DNA from: a virus
IMG/VR virus record: IMGVR_UViG_3300028802_000061
Location: 1-21,978 of that record
Length of the DNA stretch: 21,978 nt
Reading direction: 5' to 3' (one strand)
Translations under genes and position numbers: made by a program
Notes under the pieces: generated by a model
The model's database searches: none
Told to the model about the DNA's origin: nothing
What the model saw: the letters and a program-made list of their open reading frames with translations, nothing else
Shown: positions 6,637 to 21,225 of the stretch, piece after piece
Numbering within the stretch: the first letter of the stretch is position 1
Layout: each line of letters starts with the position of its first letter

Positions 6637-8919
6637 TTACTGCATGACCGGGGGCGCGGCGGGACCGCCGAAGCCCTGCGGCTGCGGCCCCAGCGCCCCG
6701 CCAGCGTCGGCGCCCTGGGGAGAATTGCCAGCCCCTTCAGGGCCTTGGGCATTGGGGTCTTCCGCCCCTGGCCCTGCTGGGCCAGCCCCCAGCGGCTTGG
6801 CTTGCAGGGCGTTCATGGTCTGGATGCTGGGCTGACCGGCAATGAAGGCGTCGGTCAAATCCAGCCGGTCGTCCATCCGCATCAGCAACTGCTTGCCCAG
6901 CCATTCGGGCGATAGCCCTGGAATTTGCAAGAGGAACGGTGCGGCCTGTGTGAAATTCTGGACTTCCACGGCCTTGTTCGGGCGCCCCGATGAACCCGCC
7001 ACAATCTCAAGAAAGATTTCATCGGCCACGTCCTGGCTGGACAGCGTGGGCCACACGGCCCCGACGCCGACAACCCGCGTGACTTCTTCGGCACCGATTT
7101 CGACAAGTGCCACTTTTCCCGCATCGCGCATGACCTCCGTCAACAGATCGTCCAGATCGTCCATATTGGATTGCAGCGCCGACATCCGGCTGCTTTCGGC
7201 AATGCTGCTTTCGGTGGCCGTGGCGCTGGACGTGCCGCCCAAATTGGCTTCTTGCGTCCCTACCGTGCGCAGGATGTCTTCAAACTGCGGCGTGACATCG
7301 TACAAGTCGGCGTTGATCGGCGGGTGCTTCACAACCTGAAGCACGTCATCAATCTTGGCCCCCGGCGTCAGGGCGTTCAACTGCACCACGCCATTGGCGG
7401 GCCGGGTTTCCAGCTTCTTCACATCGTCATCGGACAGCATGCCATTGGCGACCGCCGTCAGCGGGCGGTTGGCGATGCGATGCTGGCGTAGCCCTTCGCG
7501 CGCACGGTTCATGTCGCGCTGTTCGTGCCGCATCAAGAAGCAATCGGACAGCGGAAAACGCTGCTTGTGATGTTCAATGAGATTGAAGGCCAGCGGATAC
7601 CAGGGGAAAAAGCGTTCCAGCACCAGCGGCGGCGCCTTTGGCTCCTCTAGGAAATTGGGGAAGCCATCGCAAATTGTGTACATCAACCCGGTGGGCCGGT
7701 CGTAGCGCACCCACACGCACGCGCGGCCCTTCTTGGGGTCGTTGCCATAGCCGCTGTCGGTGCCGCCGTCCTGGGGCTGCGACATCACCACATTGTCGGC
7801 ATTGTACAAGCTGCACTTGCCGCTGACATCGACCTTCCAGATGGTCTGGATTTCATCAATCGAGAACAGATATTCCTCGCTGACAAAATCGCAGCCGACA
7901 AAGCCCTGAAGGTGAACCATGCGCCAGTCGGGGATGATCGAAGTCGCGCCGGGGAAATCGAAGACAATGCCTTCTTGCACCACGTCATTGGGCTTGGAGC
8001 GCATGGCTTCCATCGCCAGCCGCAGTTCTTCCTTTTCGGACGCGCAGCCCTCCATCGCGGCAGGGTCGTCAATCAAATCCGCCATCAGCATTTCGATGCG
8101 GGACATGCGTTCCGTCATCGTCGCCATGCCCTTCAGTTCGTCGGGCGACAGCACATGCTCCTGCATCTCGCGCACCAGCCCCAGCTTGGTGTAGCCAACG
8201 CCAGCCGCCAGTGTGCGACGCACCAACTGCTTCATCATCGCCTTGAACGGCGGGTTCTGCTGCGACAGCACCTTATTCTTGAAATACAGTTCCATCGTCT
8301 TGCAGATGCGATTTTTCATCGCTTTGCGCGCGGCGCCTTCGTTGATGTCGGCTATCAGCGCTTCGGCTTGCAGCACCGCCTTCATCATTTCCGGGTTCTG
8401 GGCCGCTTGCACGGCGGCGCCCTGGGCTTGGGGGTTGCCCGCCTGGGCGCCCTGCATGACAGCCGTGGCCGCTTGCAAAGTCTGCTGGGCCATCTGGAAC
8501 GACGCCTGATTTTCGTCCCACAGCTTGAAATCCATCATCTCCTTGCGGCGCGCAACCACGGTCGGGTTCTTGGCATAGATGGCTGCGGTGCGCTGCTGCA
8601 CATGCCGCTGGATCACATTGACCACATAGCGGTTGTCTTCCAGCTTGCCTTGGCCCTCCCACTGCAAGCCCAGCAGCATGTCTTCGTCTTTCTTCATGCG
8701 CTTGAAATCTTCTTCCCAGAACTTCCTAGCTTGGCGACACTCCTTGGTCAGCTTTTTGACCAACTCTTTGCGTTCGGTGGGGATTTCGCCGGGTTCGCGC
8801 ATGACATCGGCCATGCCAGCCTGTTGGTCGCCGCCGCCATAGCCGCTGCCTTTCTCGCTGCTTTCGTTGGGCGTGACGGACGTGCCAAGCGGCAGATCGT
8901 CGTCGCTGTCATTGGGCAT
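6637..8919 (-). CDS. Portal protein (P22-like, large)
   Basis: This 760-residue protein is predicted to form the dodecameric portal ring through which terminase packages DNA. Length and layout match P22-class portals (gp1, 725 aa). There is an acidic N-terminus, helices (ERKELVKKLTKECRQARKFW, about residues 50-69), then QRHVQQRTAAIYAKNPTVVA, a long helical core, and a low-complexity Gly/Pro/Ala/Gln C-terminal tail (residues about 700-760), where P22 portals carry the barrel region. No barrel heptads are obvious here. The ATG at 8919 overlaps the stop of the preceding 60-aa gene by 11 bases, placing it in the terminase operon. The 100-base gap downstream, before the scaffold, is unusual for this tight block. 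Confidence 0.85.
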   Translation of the reverse strand: MPNDSDDDLPLGTSVTPNESSEKGSGYGGGDQQAGMADVMREPGEIPTERKELVKKLTKECRQARKFWEEDFKRMKKDEDMLLGLQWEGQGKLEDNRYVVNVIQRHVQQRTAAIYAKNPTVVARRKEMMDFKLWDENQASFQMAQQTLQAATAVMQGAQAGNPQAQGAAVQAAQNPEMMKAVLQAEALIADINEGAARKAMKNRICKTMELYFKNKVLSQQNPPFKAMMKQLVRRTLAAGVGYTKLGLVREMQEHVLSPDELKGMATMTERMSRIEMLMADLIDDPAAMEGCASEKEELRLAMEAMRSKPNDVVQEGIVFDFPGATSIIPDWRMVHLQGFVGCDFVSEEYLFSIDEIQTIWKVDVSGKCSLYNADNVVMSQPQDGGTDSGYGNDPKKGRACVWVRYDRPTGLMYTICDGFPNFLEEPKAPPLVLERFFPWYPLAFNLIEHHKQRFPLSDCFLMRHEQRDMNRAREGLRQHRIANRPLTAVANGMLSDDDVKKLETRPANGVVQLNALTPGAKIDDVLQVVKHPPINADLYDVTPQFEDILRTVGTQEANLGGTSSATATESSIAESSRMSALQSNMDDLDDLLTEVMRDAGKVALVEIGAEEVTRVVGVGAVWPTLSSQDVADEIFLEIVAGSSGRPNKAVEVQNFTQAAPFLLQIPGLSPEWLGKQLLMRMDDRLDLTDAFIAGQPSIQTMNALQAKPLGAGPAGPGAEDPNAQGPEGAGNSPQGADAGGALGPQPQGFGGPAAPPVMQ

Positions 8920-9359: not shown

Positions 9360-9531
9360 CGCTGGCCTCCGCTTTCAGATCGGCCACCAGAATTTCCAGG
9401 CCGCGCAGCGCGGCAAGATACTTGTCTTGCTGCGCCGCGTTCATCGCGCGATGGTGCGTGTCGATAAACTGCGTGGCAAAGTTCATTTGTTGTTGCGCCC
9501 GTTCAAGCACGGCAAGATGTTTGTTGTTCAT
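9343..9531 (-). CDS. Small helical protein, unknown function
   Basis: A 62-residue, highly helical product (MNNKHLAVLERAQQQMNFAT, then AAQQDKYLAALRGLEILVAD) rich in Ala, Gln and Leu, with possible coiled-coil character over most of its length. It starts by an ATGA overlap with the upstream 56-aa gene and overlaps the next gene by 17 bases. Its first four residues, MNNK, and the DNA around its start are nearly repeated at the next gene's start, which suggests a local duplication of the junction. Confidence 0.65.
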   Translation of the reverse strand: MNNKHLAVLERAQQQMNFATQFIDTHHRAMNAAQQDKYLAALRGLEILVADLKAEASDEQQA

Positions 9532-9698
9532 TGCGCGGCCTCTGCGTCGCCTTCCAGATAGGCGCTCAACTTATCCGTCGCTTCGTCGTAAAGCTTCACA
9601 CCGTCAGGGTGCATCTTCTCGCGCGAGACAATAAATTTGCGCGCGTGGTAAAGGGTCTGCAACACGTCTTCCAAAATTATATATTCATTGTTTTCCAT
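9528..9698 (-). CDS. Small acidic helical protein directly after terminase
   Basis: The 56-residue product begins MENNEYIILEDVLQTLYHAR and ends LEGDAEAAQ; it is acidic and predicted helical. The ATG at 9698-9696 overlaps the large-terminase stop by one base (TGATG), and its own stop overlaps the next start (ATGA). Coupling on both sides is the main evidence for a genuine gene. No family is recognised. Confidence 0.65.
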   Translation of the reverse strand: MENNEYIILEDVLQTLYHARKFIVSREKMHPDGVKLYDEATDKLSAYLEGDAEAAQ

Positions 9699-11293
9699 CA
9701 GAAGCCTCCCATCGCTTCCAGTTCTTTCTGTTCATCTTTCTCCGCTTGGCCGCACCACTTGATCCAGGCATAGGTGCCGGACGGCGGTTCTGCCTTGCGC
9801 GGGTCTGGCGTCTTCGCCGCCCTTACAAGACGCCCAATGCCCATGCCCAAATGAGCGAGAGGATCAACGAAATCGTCGTGAGCAGCGCGATCAAATTTAA
9901 GCAACTCATCCAAAGCCTCCGACCACCACGATGCGAATGTGGGGAAGCGGACCTTTCCCATCGCCATGCGTCCGCGAATTGCTTGTGCGCGTGTGCGCTT
10001 GTCCTTGGCGGCTGAAACCTTCTCGACTGTGCAATAGACTTTTCGTTCCGCCATTCTCTTGAAAAGAAATGGACCAATAGATTTAAAAATGTGATCATTC
10101 TCGCCCCACCACACCAATGGCTTGTGCAAATCCATCATGTCGATCATGCGTTCCACGACAATTTCCGTGCCCGCACGCGACCAAAAAATGTCTGGCATGA
10201 TCCAGATATTGTCTTCTTGATCCACGCCAGCGACCATCAAACAGGTTTTGTCATTTTCCTGTTTAAGCCCCACGGCATGGTCAGATGCGGCGTACATTCT
10301 TAGATTTTTTGGCAAGTCTTTAAGCTGGTAAGGCGTCAGCCAGTTGCGCAGGAAAAACGCGCCTTCTTCCGGCGTCGGTCGGCCTTGATAATTCGCGTTG
10401 AAGCCGCGCGGATTGAGCCGCCGCATTGCGAAAAGGCGTTTCTCATTATGCCGCTGCGGCCAAAGGGCTGTGTCCTTACTGCGCTTCAGGCAGTCGTCGT
10501 CTTCCGCCAAGGCGGTCAGGTGCAGGATTTTCCACGTCGCCGCTTCGTCTTTATTATAGAAAGGGTTCAAAGGGTCAGTAAGGCGACCAATGATGTCATC
10601 TTCATGCCAGCGCGTCATAATGACGATGACCGCGCCCATGTCGGTCATCATGCGCGACATCAGATCGGACGAAAACCACTTCCAAACCTTGTCTCTTTGA
10701 CCGGCGCTGTCAGCATCAGCGCTGCCCTTCATCGGGTCATCGACAACAAGAACGTCGCCGCCTCGTCCGGTGATAGTGCCACCCACCCCCGTAAACGCGG
10801 CAATGCCGCCTTCAAGGGTCTGAAGCCTGTCAACTGCTTTTGACCCCTTGCGTAAATGACAACCGGGGAAAACTTGGCGGTACATTGGGGAAAGCATGTA
10901 CTCGCGGACTTTTGATCCGGCTTCGGTGGCAAGTTCTTCATTGTAGGACGCCAAGATTGCAGAGTTGAACGGATTGCGGCCCATGTACCACGCCAAGAAA
11001 GCCCAGCTTGCGAGTTGAGATTTGCCGTGGCGCGGCGGCATGATGATGATAAGGCGGGGCATCTCGCCTTTTTCCAATTGCTCCAAGGCTTCGGCAAGAA
11101 GGCGATGAAAATGCTGCGCGTCATAGCGCGACAGCAAGACATTATCCGGGTCGTTGGGGTCGGGCATCATCAGCCGGACGAACTCAATAAGTTCGTCCTT
11201 GGCCTTCATGCACGCCAGCATCCGCCGCGCCGCTGTTAAAGCGAGTTCGGGCGAGACTTCGCCGGGTACGATGTTGGCGTCAGCCAGCGCCAT
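9698..11293 (-). CDS. terL: Terminase large subunit
   Basis: The 531-residue packaging motor and headful nuclease. I chose the ATG at 11293 (MALADANIVPGE) because AAGG lies six bases before it; the frame is open to 11368 but that extension is Arg-rich and lies over the preceding gene. Motifs: Walker A PPRHGKS (residues about 86-92), Walker B VLVVDD (181-186), coupling motif MTRWHEDD (227-234). The C-terminal RNase-H-like nuclease has likely acidic residues in ASDHA (Asp338), WGEND (about 397-400) and HDDFVDPLAH (472-481). The protein should bind the portal and use ATP to translocate DNA. It overlaps its neighbours at both ends. The small subunit is 4.7 kb away, across two fibre genes. Confidence 0.95.
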   Translation of the reverse strand: MALADANIVPGEVSPELALTAARRMLACMKAKDELIEFVRLMMPDPNDPDNVLLSRYDAQHFHRLLAEALEQLEKGEMPRLIIIMPPRHGKSQLASWAFLAWYMGRNPFNSAILASYNEELATEAGSKVREYMLSPMYRQVFPGCHLRKGSKAVDRLQTLEGGIAAFTGVGGTITGRGGDVLVVDDPMKGSADADSAGQRDKVWKWFSSDLMSRMMTDMGAVIVIMTRWHEDDIIGRLTDPLNPFYNKDEAATWKILHLTALAEDDDCLKRSKDTALWPQRHNEKRLFAMRRLNPRGFNANYQGRPTPEEGAFFLRNWLTPYQLKDLPKNLRMYAASDHAVGLKQENDKTCLMVAGVDQEDNIWIMPDIFWSRAGTEIVVERMIDMMDLHKPLVWWGENDHIFKSIGPFLFKRMAERKVYCTVEKVSAAKDKRTRAQAIRGRMAMGKVRFPTFASWWSEALDELLKFDRAAHDDFVDPLAHLGMGIGRLVRAAKTPDPRKAEPPSGTYAWIKWCGQAEKDEQKELEAMGGF

Positions 11294-16563: not shown

Positions 16564-16604
16564 TTTGTATTCCCGGCTGGTAGTGAAGGACTGTTGCTAT
16601 TCTA
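16557..16604. promoter_or_regulatory. Divergent promoter/operator region between terS and the early genes
   Basis: Rightward, a perfect -35 hexamer TTGACA lies at 16557-16562, but the -10 at 17-18 bases is poor; an extended -10-like TGCTATTCT at 16595-16603 is an alternative. Leftward, TAGAAT (16604-16599) is a five-of-six match to a -10 for terS, without a clear -35. A third, variant operator-like site (ACAATTTGTATT, 16560-16571, 11 of 12 matches to the other copies) overlaps the TTGACA and the terS start codon. Exact promoters cannot be fixed by eye. Confidence 0.4.
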
Positions 16605-16659
16605 ACGCAACATTCCGCCGGACGCTAAACCGGCCTAACCTACTGACGGAGAATAAAAA
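16592..16659 (+). repeat. Cassette 0: hairpin leader of the first early gene
   Basis: TGTTGC (16592-16597) pairs with GCAACA (16607-16612). GCCGG (16617-16621) pairs with CCGGC (16630-16634) around ACGCTAAA. The second hairpin has the CGG...GCTAA...CCG form shared by most of the downstream cassettes. ACGGAG and the ATG at 16660 follow. Confidence 0.65.
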
Positions 16660-16932
16660 ATGACTACCAATTCCATCCAGAGCGGCGCAGGCGGCACCAT
16701 CTTCAGCGGCCCCTTGGGCGTGAATATCTATCGCGCGACTGTCATCGCTTCGGCGCTGAAGCTGTACGCAAACACTGGCATGAAGGCGAACCGCGCCTAT
16801 ACGCCGTCCAATATGTTGGCGGCTGCGACTGAAATCACTGGCATCAAGTTCAAGCGCGGCGAATATCTCAAAGCAGCCGAAGCGCTGAAGGCTTGGGCGC
16901 GTGACAATGCCCTGACCATCGCGAAGGACTAG
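16660..16932 (+). CDS. Early-region small protein, unknown function
   Basis: The first gene of the rightward block encodes 90 residues: MTTNSIQSGAGGTIFSGPLG, then VNIYRATVIASALKLYANTG and a basic helical end (AAEALKAWARDNALTIAKD). The segment after residue 40 (KANRAYTPSNMLAAATEITG) has the look of a compact helical phage accessory protein; similar sequences occur in other phages by memory, without known function. The ATG has ACGGAG twelve bases upstream inside cassette 0. Its TAG stop is the first codon of cassette A. Confidence 0.8.
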   Translation: MTTNSIQSGAGGTIFSGPLGVNIYRATVIASALKLYANTGMKANRAYTPSNMLAAATEITGIKFKRGEYLKAAEALKAWARDNALTIAKD

Positions 16933-17025
16933 CCACAGCTAAAGCAGCGTCCTTTGTGGCGCTGCTTTGACGGTTGCTAAACCGGCACGCTGAATATCAG
17001 CGTGCAACCCACGGAGAAAAAACCA
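16930..17025 (+). repeat. Cassette A: three-hairpin intergenic element
   Basis: Starts at the stop codon TAGCCACAGC. H1: AAAGCAGCG/CGCTGCTTT (16941-16949 with 16960-16968). H2: CGGT-TGCTAA-ACCG (16971-16984). H3: GCACGCTG/CAGCGTGC (16985-16992 with 16998-17005). Then CCCACGGAG and a GTG start. GGTTGC (16972-16977) can alternatively pair with GCAACC (17004-17009). Confidence 0.85.
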
Positions 17026-17316
17026 GTGTTCATTTTTGACGATAGCGAATTGACCCAGACTGCCGAAGCAATCCGCGCCTTAAACCCGCACGCAGCCGCC
17101 TATCCCCTCGAAAGCCTGATTTCGCACATGAAAGGAAGCGCCGCGATTGCCTACCCGAACGAAGGCGATAACGGCTATGTGTCCACCCTGGGTTATGTGC
17201 TGACCATCTGGACTTCTAAGGACACTGGCGCGCGGCATGTGAAGGCTTCGGTTTCTTCCTATACCGTCATGCAAGGCCTGAAGGCTTTCAAACCGCGCGC
17301 CAAAGCTAAAGCCTAG
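17026..17316 (+). CDS. Early-region small protein, unknown function
   Basis: I start this gene at GTG 17026 because it sits nine bases after ACGGAG, exactly where the ATG lies in the other cassettes; an in-frame GTG at 17002 would fall inside hairpin 3. The 96-residue product (FIFDDSELTQTAEAIRALNP; then YPNEGDNGYVSTLGYVLTIW and a basic tail FKPRAKAKA) mixes helix and strand and has no recognised motif. The basic end may contact nucleic acid. TAG is the first codon of cassette B. Confidence 0.78.
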   Translation: MFIFDDSELTQTAEAIRALNPHAAAYPLESLISHMKGSAAIAYPNEGDNGYVSTLGYVLTIWTSKDTGARHVKASVSSYTVMQGLKAFKPRAKAKA

Positions 17317-17408
17317 CCACAGCCTATCCCGCGTCCAATGTGGCGCGGGATATACGGTTGCTAGACCGGCGCCCTGGTAGTCATGGCGCAACCCACGGAG
17401 AAACTAAA
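17314..17408 (+). repeat. Cassette B: three-hairpin intergenic element
   Basis: TAGCCACAGC stop. H1: TATCCCGCG/CGCGGGATA (17325-17333 with 17344-17352). H2: CGGT-TGCTAG-ACCG (17355-17368). H3: GCGCCCTG/CATGGCGC (17369-17376 with 17382-17389), with one mismatch. ACGGAG and ATG follow. GGTTGC/GCAACC alternative pairing is present. Confidence 0.82.
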
Positions 17409-17801
17409 ATGCGTTTTGAAACTGTTTGGCAATTTAAGACCGCGCAATTCCGCGTCGCGCTTGAAGCGACCTATGACGACGACTGCGATTTGTCTTTTGA
17501 CGACACTGGCGAAACCCGCGCCAATATCAAAAGCGGGTTGTGGACGCCCTATCTGTTCAAGGTCGCGGTTTATGATCTGACTAGCGGCAATGAAATCGGC
17601 GCCGACTATCTGGGCGGTTCTATCCACGAAAACGCATCAGATTTTATTGACCATCGCGAAGTTGGCAAACAGAACCGCGAATATGCAGCCCAGGGCAATG
17701 CCGCGCGTTGCGGTTCCTATTTCCATGACATGATCAAAGGCGCCATTGCAGAAGCGCGCAAAAACTACAGTGTCCCGCGCCCCAAGCTTCGCCACCTTTA
17801 G
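17409..17801 (+). CDS. Early-region conserved-type phage protein, unknown function
   Basis: The 130-residue product begins MRFETVWQFKTAQFRVALEA. It contains VAVYDLTSGNEIGADYLGGS and a helical C-terminus (CGSYFHDMIKGAIAEARKNY). This FETVWQFKT...EIGADYLGG...GSYF..M...AI.EAR layout occurs in hypothetical proteins of other phages and prophages as I recall; no biochemical role is known to me. It is acidic in the middle (YDDDCDLSFDDTGE). The ATG is preceded by ACGGAG in cassette B; the upstream open frame (from 17340) covers cassette hairpins and is not coding. Its TAG begins cassette C. Confidence 0.82.
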   Translation: MRFETVWQFKTAQFRVALEATYDDDCDLSFDDTGETRANIKSGLWTPYLFKVAVYDLTSGNEIGADYLGGSIHENASDFIDHREVGKQNREYAAQGNAARCGSYFHDMIKGAIAEARKNYSVPRPKLRHL

Positions 17802-17895
17802 CCACAGCCTAGACCCAGGCTCGCACCCTGGGTCTATACGGTTGCTAGACCGGCAAGCTGATGAACAGCTTGCAACCCACTACGGAGAATACAAA
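17799..17895 (+). repeat. Cassette C: three-hairpin intergenic element
   Basis: TAGCCACAGC stop. H1: TAGACCCAGG/CCTGGGTCTA (17810-17819 with 17827-17836). H2: CGGT-TGCTAG-ACCG (17839-17852). H3: GCAAGCTG/CAGCTTGC (17853-17860 with 17866-17873). TACGGAG and ATG follow. GGTTGC/GCAACC alternative pairing is present. Confidence 0.85.
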
Positions 17896-18087: not shown

Positions 18088-18395
18088 TGGCCTATCAACC
18101 CAAGCGATCCCGTGCCCAATTTTCCAAAGGCGCACCGGCCCACATTCTGGCTTGCTACGATAACGGCGCCAAAACAATCGACCGCTATACGGTCTTAATC
18201 GGTGCCCCTTTTTGGTGCGATTATATGGGTCGCGATGTGCCCTATATCGCCATGAGTGACGCGCCCACGCATCCACAAGGCTTTTCACAATGGGGCGAAA
18301 TGCCTAGCGCCAATCGCGCGGCATGCGGAAAGCATGTGGCTTGGCTTGATCTGCCCGAACACATCCGCGCCCATGTGATCGCCCGCACAGCCTAG
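18087..18395 (+). CDS. Early-region conserved-type phage protein, unknown function
   Basis: The 102-residue product includes ILACYDNGAKTIDRYTVLIG, then DVPYIAMSDAPTHPQGFSQW and LDLPEHIRAHVIARTA. The DRYTV...VPY.AMS..PTHPQGFSQWGE...LPEH....I pattern is one I recall from many phage and prophage hypothetical proteins, with no known activity. No cassette separates it from the small membrane gene; it begins by TGATG overlap and so relies on coupling. Its TAG is the first codon of cassette D. Confidence 0.83.
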   Translation: MAYQPKRSRAQFSKGAPAHILACYDNGAKTIDRYTVLIGAPFWCDYMGRDVPYIAMSDAPTHPQGFSQWGEMPSANRAACGKHVAWLDLPEHIRAHVIARTA

Positions 18396-18490
18396 CCACA
18401 GCTAAAGCCTGGGCACATTGCCCAGGCTTTGACGGTTGCTAGACCGGCAAACTGGATACCAGTTTGCAACCACTACGGAGAAAAACCACC
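18393..18490 (+). repeat. Cassette D: three-hairpin intergenic element
   Basis: TAGCCACAGC stop. H1: AAAGCCTGGGC/GCCCAGGCTTT (18404-18414 with 18420-18430). H2: CGGT-TGCTAG-ACCG (18433-18446). H3: GCAAACTG/CAGTTTGC (18447-18454 with 18460-18467). TACGGAG, AAAAACCACC and ATG follow. GGTTGC/GCAACC alternative pairing is present. Confidence 0.85.
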
Positions 18491-18889
18491 ATGCCAGAAT
18501 TTATTTTACCGGGAAACTCAGATGAGCGCTTTGCCGCTCTAGACCCCTTTATTCAGGGTTACATAGAAGCGCTTTTTTTCACCTGTGAGGAAGAACTTGG
18601 CGACAAAGGGTTTAGCGATCTTGACCCCGCGACCCTGGGCGAAATCCTGACCACCTGTGAAGCCTTTCAAATGGCGGCGGCTGATCTGCTAACCGAAGCC
18701 TATACCCGCGACTATGACGCCACCCAGGCGGGGCGCGATTATTGGTTTACCCGCAACGGTCACGGTGTCGGCTATTGGGACCGCAAGCAATTAGACGGCG
18801 CCCTGGGCGAAGCCTTGACCGCACGCGCCAAAAGCTTTGGCGAAGTGTGGGCCTATGAAGGCGATTGCGGCAAGATTTTCATTTCCTAG
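18491..18889 (+). CDS. Early-region conserved-type phage protein, unknown function
   Basis: The 132-residue acidic product begins MPEFILPGNSDERFAALDPF and includes IQGYIEALFFTCEEELGDKG. It ends with an aromatic-rich segment (DYWFTRNGHGVGYWDRKQLD) and FGEVWAYEGDCGKIFIS. The GYIEA.F...E...L......YW.TRNGHG.GYWDR layout is familiar from hypothetical proteins of diverse phages; I cannot assign a function. The ATG is twelve bases past the ACGGAG motif of cassette D. Its TAG starts cassette E. Confidence 0.83.
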   Translation: MPEFILPGNSDERFAALDPFIQGYIEALFFTCEEELGDKGFSDLDPATLGEILTTCEAFQMAAADLLTEAYTRDYDATQAGRDYWFTRNGHGVGYWDRKQLDGALGEALTARAKSFGEVWAYEGDCGKIFIS

Positions 18890-18982
18890 CCACAGCTAAA
18901 GCCCAGGGCGCCCGATGCCCTGGGCTTTGACGGCTGCTAGGCCGTGCTGGAAATAATTCCAGCAAAAACCACGGAGCGAAAA
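18887..18982 (+). repeat. Cassette E: variant three-hairpin intergenic element
   Basis: TAGCCACAGC stop. H1: AAAGCCCAGGGC/GCCCTGGGCTTT (18898-18909 with 18917-18928). H2: CGGC-TGCTAG-GCCG (18931-18944), a compensatory change from CGGT/ACCG. H3: TGCTGGAA/TTCCAGCA (18945-18952 with 18957-18964), unrelated in sequence to the other H3 stems. ACGGAG and ATG follow. The GGTTGC/GCAACC alternative pairing is lost here. Confidence 0.83.
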
Positions 18983-19423
18983 ATGAAAAATACCTGCATC
19001 CCCACGCTATTGAGCGCGGGCATTAGTTGGGATGATGCGCACGCCTTGCGGCGCATTTCCATGACGCTGCAACGCTGGCACGAACTTGAGTGCGGCGACG
19101 GAAACGACCATGCGTCGTGGACGATTGCGCGCGGCGCCTTTGTCAAAAAGGACGGTGTGAAAACCTTTGAGCATGACGAAGACGGCAAGCCTTTTAGCGA
19201 ATACCACCCGCACAGGGGCGCCGTGTCCTACACGCCCATTCCTGACCGTGAGAAGGGCGCTAAGAAGCGCTTGGCCGCGATCCTGGCACGCTATCCCGGC
19301 TTCCGTTCCTACATCCAAGGCGACCCGCGCGGCGCCGCGCTGTACATCCTGCGGCCTGATGATTTGCCTATGGGCCGTGACATTGACTGCACCTATTCCA
19401 ACGGCATCGCGGTGTACAAATGA
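18983..19423 (+). CDS. Early-region conserved-type phage protein, unknown function
   Basis: The 146-residue product includes HALRRISMTLQRWHELECGD, then PFSEYHPHRGAVSYTPIPDR and YIQGDPRGAALYILRPDDLP. This LRRI.MTL.RWHE.ECGDGN...YIQGDPRGAALYILRP signature is, as I recall, widespread in phages, with no established role. The ATG at 18983 follows the cassette-E ACGGAG; an earlier in-frame ATG would lie in hairpin 3. The stop overlaps the next start (ATGA), so no cassette is needed there. Confidence 0.85.
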   Translation: MKNTCIPTLLSAGISWDDAHALRRISMTLQRWHELECGDGNDHASWTIARGAFVKKDGVKTFEHDEDGKPFSEYHPHRGAVSYTPIPDREKGAKKRLAAILARYPGFRSYIQGDPRGAALYILRPDDLPMGRDIDCTYSNGIAVYK

Positions 19424-19605
19424 TCACCAATCAACCCGACCTTCGCGCGGCGTTCTGGCGCGATCATCCGCAATACACGCGGCGCCCCGGTTGGACGCAG
19501 AATAACTACCCCGCCGATATTCGCGTGGAATGGGTTGCCTTTGTTGATCACATGAACCGCGTGGGGGCTATCAGCGACGCCTTGGCTTCGCGCGCCACGC
19601 TCTAA
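19420..19605 (+). CDS. Small early-region protein, unknown function
   Basis: The 61-residue product (MITNQPDLRAAFWRDHPQYT start; then IRVEWVAFVDHMNRVGAISD) is translationally coupled to the preceding gene by ATGA. It has aromatic and charged residues and a likely C-terminal helix, and no recognised motif. The pattern LR.AFW..HP looks like a conserved small phage protein, recalled rather than searched. Its stop is TAA, unlike the TAG used before cassettes A-E and G, and the junction after it is the shorter cassette F. Confidence 0.75.
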   Translation: MITNQPDLRAAFWRDHPQYTRRPGWTQNNYPADIRVEWVAFVDHMNRVGAISDALASRATL

Positions 19606-19676
19606 GGGTTGGAGTTAATGCCCAGGGCGCCACGCCCTGGGCATTGGCGGCAATCCTGCCGATACGGAGAAAAACC
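19603..19676 (+). repeat. Cassette F: short two-hairpin form
   Basis: Begins with TAA rather than TAGCCACAGC. H1: AATGCCCAGGGCG/CGCCCTGGGCATT (19617-19629 with 19633-19645), 13 bp with a three-base loop. H2: CGGCA-ATCC-TGCCG (19648-19661). There is no H3; TACGGAG and AAAAACC then lead to ATG. Confidence 0.78.
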
Positions 19677-19964
19677 ATGAACGCACACACACCAGGGCCT
19701 TGGATTATTGACCCTGACGCCACCCTACCGCTTGCCGTTATCCGCTTGTCTAGCGATGAAAACGTGGACGGTGACGGCATCTGCGAAATAGGCGAACGCA
19801 CGCCACAGAACGAAGCTGACGCGCGCCTGATCTGTGCGGCGCCTGATCTGCTGGCGGCGGCTGTAGATTGCATCTCCTGCGCCGATGCCGCCGACTATGA
19901 CAGTATGTTGAACGCATTGGACGCCTTGCGCGACGCCATCACCAAAGCCAAGGGTGACGCATGA
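19677..19964 (+). CDS. HTPGPW-type small phage protein
   Basis: The 95-residue acidic product begins MNAHTPGPWIIDPDATLPLA and carries NEADARLICAAPDLLAAAVD before a C-terminal helix. The HTPGPW opening together with the ADARLI.AAPDLL segment marks a very common phage hypothetical family; its function is unknown to me. ACGGAG precedes the ATG in cassette F. It ends in KGDA, and the last codons carry GGTGACGC directly before the next ATG, an arrangement copied at the end of the following gene. Confidence 0.85.
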   Translation: MNAHTPGPWIIDPDATLPLAVIRLSSDENVDGDGICEIGERTPQNEADARLICAAPDLLAAAVDCISCADAADYDSMLNALDALRDAITKAKGDA

Positions 19965-20248
19965 CCGCCCCTACAGATTGGATGTGGGACCGCCACCCTG
20001 GCGGGCTGCATTATGTGATGGAATTAGACCGTTCAATTGTCGCCACCATTGACGCCAAACGCCAACGCCCAGGCAATACCGCGCGCTTTATCGCGGCTGG
20101 GCCTGAAGTGTTTGCCGCGCTGCTGGATACGCTGCATGAATTGAAGCTCTATAGCGTGGATGTGGACGACGACGATTTGCGCGCCACTATCGCTAGGGCG
20201 AACGCTGCTATCGCCAGGGCACGCACAACCCCCAAAGGTGACGCATGA
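19961..20248 (+). CDS. Small early-region protein, possible diverged paralogue of HTPGPW gene
   Basis: The 95-residue product has MTAPTDWMWDRHPGGLHYVM at the start and ARFIAAGPEVFAALLDTLHE in the middle, which parallels ADARLICAAPDLLAA of the preceding gene. Length, KGDA ending and junction DNA also match, so an old duplication with divergent N-terminus is likely. It starts by ATGA overlap and is coupled at its end to the RMF-like gene by the same overlap. Function unknown. Confidence 0.8.
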   Translation: MTAPTDWMWDRHPGGLHYVMELDRSIVATIDAKRQRPGNTARFIAAGPEVFAALLDTLHELKLYSVDVDDDDLRATIARANAAIARARTTPKGDA

Positions 20249-20427
20249 CCAAAGCAGAGCGCGCGGCCTATGGCATGGGCTGGCATGTGGGCCGCTGCGG
20301 CGCCCCGACGCGCCTATGCCCTTACACGCGCGGCTCTAGCCTGTGGCGCTGCTGGCAAGAGGGGCACGCCAACGGCGCCGCCGCCAAGGCCAAGACAGCA
20401 CAGCAAGGCGGGCCGACCGCGTTCTAG
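20245..20427 (+). CDS. Ribosome modulation factor (RMF)-like small protein
   Basis: The 60-residue product contains AYGMGWHVGRCGAPTRLCPY then SSLWRCWQEGHANG. E. coli RMF has GYQAGIAGRSKEMCPY then SQWLGGWREAM; shared features are the spaced glycines, CPY and the W..(G/C)W pair. RMF binds the 30S subunit and drives formation of inactive 100S ribosome dimers. Family members, or look-alikes, exist in phages and alphaproteobacteria, often uncharacterised. Whether this one hibernates host ribosomes is inference. It is coupled to the preceding gene by ATGA. Its TAG opens cassette G. The last 15 residues are low-complexity. Confidence 0.7.
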   Translation: MTKAERAAYGMGWHVGRCGAPTRLCPYTRGSSLWRCWQEGHANGAAAKAKTAQQGGPTAF

Positions 20428-20497
20428 CACCAGCCTGGGCCGCGTCGCTAAGGGCGCGGCCCATACGGGCGCTAATGTCCGCAGGAGAAAAACCACC
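20425..20497 (+). repeat. Cassette G: short two-hairpin form
   Basis: TAGCACCAGC stop. H1: TGGGCCGCG/CGCGGCCCA (20436-20444 with 20455-20463). H2: CGGGC-GCTAAT-GTCCG (20466-20481) with one G-T pair. There is no H3; CAGGAGAAAAACCACC then leads to ATG, the only full AGGAG in the series. Confidence 0.78.
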
Positions 20498-20866: not shown

Positions 20867-20910
20867 GAAAATTTGTCCCTTTGCCTTGAAATGTGTACGG
20901 TACGGGCGAA

Positions 20911-20925
20911 TACATTTTGTATTTG
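20911..20925 (+). promoter_or_regulatory. Operator-like site in front of the HTH regulator
   Basis: TACATTTTGTATTTG. With its flank it forms a palindrome AATACA-TTT-TGTATT (20909-20923). It lies 12 bases before the regulator ATG and about 20 bases downstream of a -35-like TTGAAA (20886-20891), so TACATT may also serve as the -10. A bound protein here would block transcription or translation of the regulator, consistent with autoregulation. Confidence 0.55.
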
Positions 20926-20937
20926 CCAGGGGGACGC

Positions 20938-21225
20938 ATGTCCAAAAAAACCAAGGACTACCGTTTTTATTTGGAAGGGAAGGAGAAAGACCCGATCATT
21001 GGGCAACTCCAAACCATTTTGCAGCAAAGCGGCAACATCAGCCCCGCGCAAATTCGACTTCTGTCGGAGCGGTCAGGGGTTTCCTATCACACGATTTGGG
21101 CCTGGTTTTACGGCCCGACACGCAACCCGCAAACCATCACCATGCGCTTTGTGATCAAAGCGGCGGGCGCCCGCTTGGGCATCATCATGGAAGACGGATC
21201 AATCGCCAAAGAACCAAGGAAATAA
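20938..21225 (+). CDS. Small HTH DNA-binding protein (Cro/CI-like fold), probable regulator
   Basis: The 95-residue product starts MSKKTKDYRFYLEGKEKDPI at ATG 20938, with GGGGGA six bases upstream; a GTG in frame at 20893 would read through the operator and is less likely. The segment ISPAQIRLLSERSGVSYHTI followed by WAWFYGPTRNPQT (residues about 35-67) has the turn and recognition-helix pattern of lambda-repressor-like HTH proteins, with a helical C-terminal part (RFVIKAAGARLGIIMEDG). It lacks an obvious CI cleavage or dimerisation domain, so a Cro-like role is plausible. The palindrome before it is a candidate target. The next gene follows by two bases and should be co-transcribed. Confidence 0.72.
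   Translation: MSKKTKDYRFYLEGKEKDPIIGQLQTILQQSGNISPAQIRLLSERSGVSYHTIWAWFYGPTRNPQTITMRFVIKAAGARLGIIMEDGSIAKEPRK

Follow-up and report, generated by a model that had tools for sequence, protein, structure and literature searches.

Repeated cassettes between small early genes

The DNA analysed here (the window) is a 22-kb sequence of an uncultured phage (IMG/VR record IMGVR_UViG_3300028802_000061, positions 1-21,978). Its capsid and terminase share 42-48% identity with those of Microcystis phage Mae-Yong1326-1 and Rhizobium phage RHph_N65. Between its small early genes we detected seven cassettes, A to G, all on the + strand and all built on a core element of about 55 nt. Every copy, in the window as well as in the other phages described below, fills the slot from the upstream stop codon to the Shine-Dalgarno (SD) sequence of the next gene. 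The pattern ACGGTTGCTARACCG, with up to three mismatches allowed, matched six times where 1.1 matches were expected, each time at a gene junction on the + strand, and no shuffled sequence reached six. The positions of the cassettes and the parts of cassette E are as follows (CM, covariance model).

18887-18976, + strand: cassette E, whole, running from TAG, the stop codon of ORF 18491-18889, to the SD CGGAG (18972-18976) of ORF 18983-19423; 61.1 bits with CM R1
18887-18893, + strand: cassette E, 5' strand TAGCCAC (columns 2-8), overlapping the stop codon; covariation
18894-18896, + strand: cassette E, AGC linker; A9 and G10 (alignment columns) invariant in 13 copies
18897-18929, + strand: cassette E, hairpin P1, hypervariable in sequence and paired in every copy; covariation
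18931-18944, + strand: cassette E, hairpin P2, CGGC-TGCTAG-GCCG, the small central hairpin of the preliminary description; its loop pairs with 18887-18890
18945-18964, + strand: cassette E, hairpin P3, TGCTGGAA-ATAA-TTCCAGCA; P3 is present in A-E and missing from F and G
16930-16984, + strand: cassette A core, with P3 at 16985-17005; alignment and CM
17314-17368, + strand: cassette B core; alignment and CM
17799-17852, + strand: cassette C core; alignment and CM
18393-18446, + strand: cassette D core; alignment and CM
19605-19661, + strand: cassette F core, 5' AGGGTTG pairing with CAATCCT, loop covarying independently; alignment and CM
20425-20481, + strand: cassette G core, P2 CGGGC-GCTAAT-GTCCG at 20466-20481; alignment and CM
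16581-16634, + strand: uncertain, degenerate eighth copy preceding the first gene, with TAGT..GCTA and P2 GCCGG-ACGCTAAA-CCGGC

Other features of this region may be mentioned. ORF 20245-20427, a small frame preceding cassette G, is similar to ribosome modulation factor, with a Pfam RMF match (E 4e-4) that falls short of the curated cut-off. The adjacent ORFs 19677-19964 and 19961-20248 both match phrog_1273 and are tandem paralogues with no cassette between them. Just 5' of ORF 20938-21225 lies a near-perfect palindrome with an operator-like look (GGCGAATACATTTTGTATTTGCC, 20903-20929).

A loop that pairs back to the stop codon

Numbering the alignment from the base preceding TAG as column 1, the element comprises a 5' strand (columns 2-8), AGC (columns 9-11), P1, two linker bases, P2 (columns 37-52), often P3, and then CGGAG. 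The TAG within the 5' strand terminates the upstream gene in cassettes A-E and G; in F a TAA stop ends at column 1. The CTAGC that overlaps the TAG stop, 7 nt 5' of the first hairpin, is complementary to the P2 loop, GCTA of the loop facing TAGC of the 5' strand. In cassette F, whose P2 reads CGGCA-ATCC-TGCCG and so carries no GCTAA loop, both sides are altered (GGGT/ATCC) and the register is kept. Neither cassette F with its different loop nor the complementarity at the stop codon was part of the preliminary description.

The pairing is strongly supported by covariation. When P1, P2 and the loop pairing are scored together on A-G, counting the lower 9 pairs of P1 because its apex was shortened in the alignments, 119 of 119 cells are paired (equalled by 0 of 500 shuffles), the covariation score is 0.65 against 0.18 in shuffles, and 11 pairs are changed on both sides against 4.9. 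Over 13 copies, 96.6% of cells are paired compared with 65.6% in shuffles, and 15 of 16 pairs are doubly changed. Double changes maintain the pairing between columns 2-5 and 42-45 and between columns 7-8 and 39-40; the loop is ATCC, ACAC, ATTC or GCTT in F and in phage loci L143, L288, L258 and L249, with the 5' strand altered to match. In a strand-swap test, whose permutations take the copies as independent and ignore their relatedness, the loop and 5' strand are paired in 43 of 44 cells (11 distinct rows) against a mean of 32 when swapped, and the inner pairing 7-8/39-40 in 20 of 22 cells, neither being matched in 20,000 permutations; with the eight divergent rows only, P is 0.0005 for the outer and 0.001 for the inner pairing.

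These results bear on the preliminary description, in which P2 was regarded as a selected hairpin presenting a conserved loop. The compensatory change it reported, from a T-A pair in A-D (CGGT-TGCTA(A/G)-ACCG) to C-G in cassette E, is indeed there, as is the GCTAA loop of cassette G on CGGGC/GTCCG. Selection on the hairpin is supported, since the inner pair of columns 40 and 49 is TA, CG, GU, AU or GC and is paired in 13 of 13 copies; the 4-bp hairpin is kept in all seven window cassettes. The comparison with related phages thus bore out the covariation of the stem and not the proposed greater conservation of the loop, which covaries with the 5' strand and is constant in A-E and G because it pairs in cis with TAGC. 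The letters that are invariant across the 13 copies are instead A9, G10, C37 and G38, beside the stems.

The suggestion that the loop binds a protein or another RNA in trans consequently loses its support. A binding site for a phage regulator or antiterminator would be in keeping with repeated copies in one operon and with the four invariant letters, but the loop is not fixed and the copies occur in unlike phages adjoining unlike genes, and we consider such a site very unlikely.

Two competing helices

Columns 39-40 have two covarying and competing partners, namely columns 7-8 of the 5' strand and columns 49-50 of the 3' arm of P2. In two of the three L249 copies (L249b and L249c), C8, G39 and C50 are jointly replaced by T, A and T. 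Two covarying partners for the same columns imply either helices that alternate or a pseudoknot with base triples; judged from sequence, the element RNA is therefore predicted to be a pseudoknot, a two-state switch, or both. The same letters can also form a long nested hairpin, whose pairs covary as well. For A-G it comes out as the predicted minimum, exceeding the P2 form in stability by 1.9-8.3 kcal/mol. This nested fold has about 19-26 rungs, mismatches included, and only about 19-20 in L249, where P1 is 7-8 bp.

One may speculate that this competition couples translation of neighbouring genes. According to this speculation, a ribosome at the stop codon would cover the 5' strand, allowing P2 to form and the next gene to be translated, while without a ribosome the 5' strand would pair with columns 39-45, and the freed CCG would pair with the CGG of the SD. 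The stop codon does lie inside the 5' strand in A-E and G, and two mutually exclusive covarying helices, of which the nested state is the more stable by default, are what such a switch would need. Blocking the 5' strand in silico clearly raised the predicted accessibility of the SD in cassettes E (0.41 to 0.74) and F (0.53 to 0.76), but changed it little or not at all in A, C, D, L258 and L249, and L143 and L288 have no CCG:CGG pairing. With a clear response in E and F only, SD control is no general rule, and we regard the coupling switch as distinctly unlikely. Another candidate, GGTTGC/GCAACC pairing before the SD, was rejected on reading the sequences, as it is present in A-D and gone in E.

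No match to a known class

A search of the window cassettes against Rfam 15, including pistol, hatchet, twister and the RAGATH motifs, gave nothing at gathering thresholds, and only chance matches at E up to 5. No hammerhead core (CUGANGA, GAAA, stems I-III and a NUH cleavage site) was found in the window by descriptor or by Rfam. None of the cassettes carries an intrinsic terminator, a G+C stem followed by a U-tract, and the attC boxes GTTRRRY/RYYYAAC were not recovered on reading the alignment (GTTGCTA, the sequence in A-D, does not fit GTTRRRY, and E, F and G have lost GTT), so that terminator and attC identities are excluded. More generally, inverted repeats between small genes in a single orientation throughout might suggest an element acting as DNA, such as an attC-like recombination site or a module boundary. 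Against this, the GTT cleavage box is not conserved, the fit from stop codon to SD suits mRNA, and the G-U pairs (4-43 in F, 40-49 in G) hold on the + strand only, G-U counts alone being a weak guide to strand. An element acting at the DNA level is thus extremely unlikely.

Copies in other phages

Neither exact nor degenerate sequence patterns built on the window cassettes returned a true copy from IMG/VR (no match, or 11 chance matches in coding sequence). CM R1 found only chance matches in coding regions of the capsid relatives, where intergenic folds were ordinary hairpins, and only GC-rich chance matches in host genomes, some of them due to the GAAA apex placed in the model. We turn to 53 virus loci (L numbers) found by searching with ORF 18983-19423, the gene 3' of cassette E. 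There the CM found a copy in L143, whose P2 sequence then led to copies in L288 and L258. CM R2 scores these copies at 51.5 (L143), 59.2 (L258) and 55.1 (L288) bits, all three having been included in its training, and gives 39.1 bits to L249, a phage outside the training set, which holds two further copies, three in total. Weaker candidate copies occur in L142, L167 and L173.

The loose descriptor of P1, P2 and their pairing does not discriminate alone (about 100 matches per 385 kb, the same in reversed sequence), and with a tighter one there were 34 matches in context overall against 35 in the control, with only a seeming enrichment of the top ranks. A pattern of the L143 type had one match, unrelated, in 385 genomes of the class of Rhodopseudomonas. 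Erythrobacter phage XM05 was rejected as a carrier: it has early genes in common, but its junctions hold terminators, palindromes and promoter-like repeats. In that phage (L189, 86000-99000), nearly all junctions have a terminator hairpin, GTTAACCTTAAC palindromes and a promoter-like repeat containing TTGAC, and the small genes appear to be transcribed singly. Junctions in L143 and L288 also contain recurring hairpins that resemble P3, with variable stems and a loop similar to TTGGC; TAACTGAGAGGGA follows them, and they lie 5' of start codons. L288 has a cluster of eight tRNA genes as well (9444-10246, Rfam).

Hammerhead ribozymes in the same slot

A descriptor for type II hammerheads (GAAA, stem III, UH, stem I, CUGANGA, stem II), run on both strands of 5.96 Mb, gave 8 matches in relatives and none in reversed or scrambled-core controls.

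L143, 5074, 5357 and 5904: type II hammerheads, descriptor
L138, 3177: type II hammerhead, descriptor
L156, 2885, 3498 and 4021: type II hammerheads, descriptor
L288, 6807 (reverse-complement coordinates), minus strand: type II hammerhead, descriptor

All eight extend from the stop codon of a frame of at least 69 codons to the SD of the gene that follows. Of these, the Rfam type II model picks up a single one, whose 28.6 bits fall short of the gathering score of 37; the core is canonical in L138 and L156 and has an extra U adjoining stem II in L143 and L288. The L143 orthologue of ORF 18983-19423 has the hammerhead at L143:5904-5965 directly 5' of it, in the position taken by cassette E in the window. 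L249 has instead a type I hammerhead, scoring 30.4 bits where the cut-off is 34 (E 5.5e-6 on a 201-base stretch), on the same strand as its three copies of the element and at a stop-SD junction, starting at the stop codon of ORF 7060-7242.

The element thus accompanies a known ribozyme in three phages, with a type II hammerhead in L143 and L288 and a type I in L249, and shares an operon with it in L143 and L249; in L143 one of the hammerheads is at the orthologous junction. L143 and L288 are related, so that few lineages underlie the association. In a third group, L157-L185, the junction of the ORF 18983 orthologue holds another structured RNA.

L157, 5510-5602 and 5873-5955; L163, 4244; L171, 3794 and 4500; L181, 4764, 5511 and 5873; L167, 5877: second intercistronic RNA, 16 distinct sequences

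This RNA, which had no Rfam match in the loci scanned, is laid out as NAGACTG, P1, TGGCCTN and P2 (CCTAG..CTAGG, CCTTGG..CCAAGG or CCTGC..GCAGG), with a 5' NAG that matches the CTN of P2 (TAG/CTA, AAG/CTT, CAG/CTG), and one copy is directly 5' of the ORF 18983 orthologue. Comparison of the junctions in these relatives therefore indicates that one position is occupied by unlike folds, among them a known self-cleaving ribozyme.

A proposed role in separating cistrons

In the T7 early region, RNase III hairpins between consecutive early genes separate the cistrons. Our element resembles these sites as a series of hairpins between successive genes with cistron separation as a putative outcome, and differs in sequence and in having a second covarying helix that excludes the long hairpin. 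The long irregular hairpin could be a non-catalytic site, T7-like, for processing by host RNase III or another RNase, or for mRNA stability; RNase III sites are long double helices of about two turns. That A-G are predicted to have the nested fold as their minimum, that its pairs covary, and that the elements sit between cistrons one after another, fit this possibility, but P2 is conserved and covaries even though the nested hairpin excludes it, the short P1 of L249 limits the number of rungs, and hammerheads in equivalent slots suggest that a protein is not needed. We find it an unlikely account.

The explanation we prefer, to which we would give an even chance, is that the cassette is a cis-acting intercistronic RNA that processes or insulates mRNA, equivalent in position to a ribozyme and possibly a ribozyme itself, with cleavage inferred. 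Self-cleavage by the element is possible, if somewhat unlikely. According to this model, the 5' strand beginning at the stop codon, AGC, P1, (N)CG and P2, with its loop paired to the 5' strand, would do the job that hammerheads do in this slot, separating or insulating cistrons through defined mRNA ends. These ends might arise by self-cutting or from a site offered to a host nuclease, and the products would be mRNAs of cistron size. When a ribosome terminates at the overlapping stop codon, it should open the 5' strand, and the element's activity could therefore depend on translation of the upstream gene. Four invariant letters, fewer than in a typical ribozyme, the more stable nested hairpin and a response of SD accessibility that is clear only in E and F count against this explanation.

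In pistol ribozymes, the loop of a short hairpin pairs in a pseudoknot. Our element shares this trait and the logic of discovery, but it has no Rfam match to pistol, and strand order and fixed letters differ. By placement, the nearest systems are the type II hammerheads found in operons of phages and bacteria (PMC3088659); among repeats at translation starts, the nearest are the SAS/ESAS of Cluster K mycobacteriophages (PMC3203893). With the former the element has in common the slot from stop codon to SD, a small fold with hypervariable stems and few fixed letters, and its occurrence in the same phages (L143, L288), but the window cassettes have a hairpin with a pseudoknot or switch in place of the CUGANGA/GAAA core and three-way junction. 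SAS/ESAS are likewise repeated inverted repeats with variable spacers directly 5' of the translation starts of many small phage genes, but of unrelated sequence, the ESAS arms being fixed 17-mers beside the 13-bp SAS (PMC3203893), and they are not known to show loop pairing or overlap with a stop codon. On reading, the cassettes contain no ESAS (17-bp inverted arms beside the 13-bp GGGATAGGAGCCC). The pseudoknot of T4 gene 32 mRNA (PMC3014915) also lies 5' of a start codon in a phage message, but is a single copy bound by gp32, away from a stop codon and without an insertion hairpin.

About nine classes of self-cleaving ribozyme have been described, and pistol, hatchet and twister-sister were found through their location where hammerheads and twisters sit (PMC10085705). 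The element is found in such proximity to hammerheads, with a fold supported by covariation and with no Rfam match. A motif found by hammerhead proximity need not be a ribozyme. At gene junctions this undescribed fold may serve to cleave the mRNA or to insulate its parts, and it might represent a novel type of self-cleaving RNA. Even without self-cleavage it remains a repeated RNA element overlapping stop codons, which shows how phages punctuate operons of small genes.
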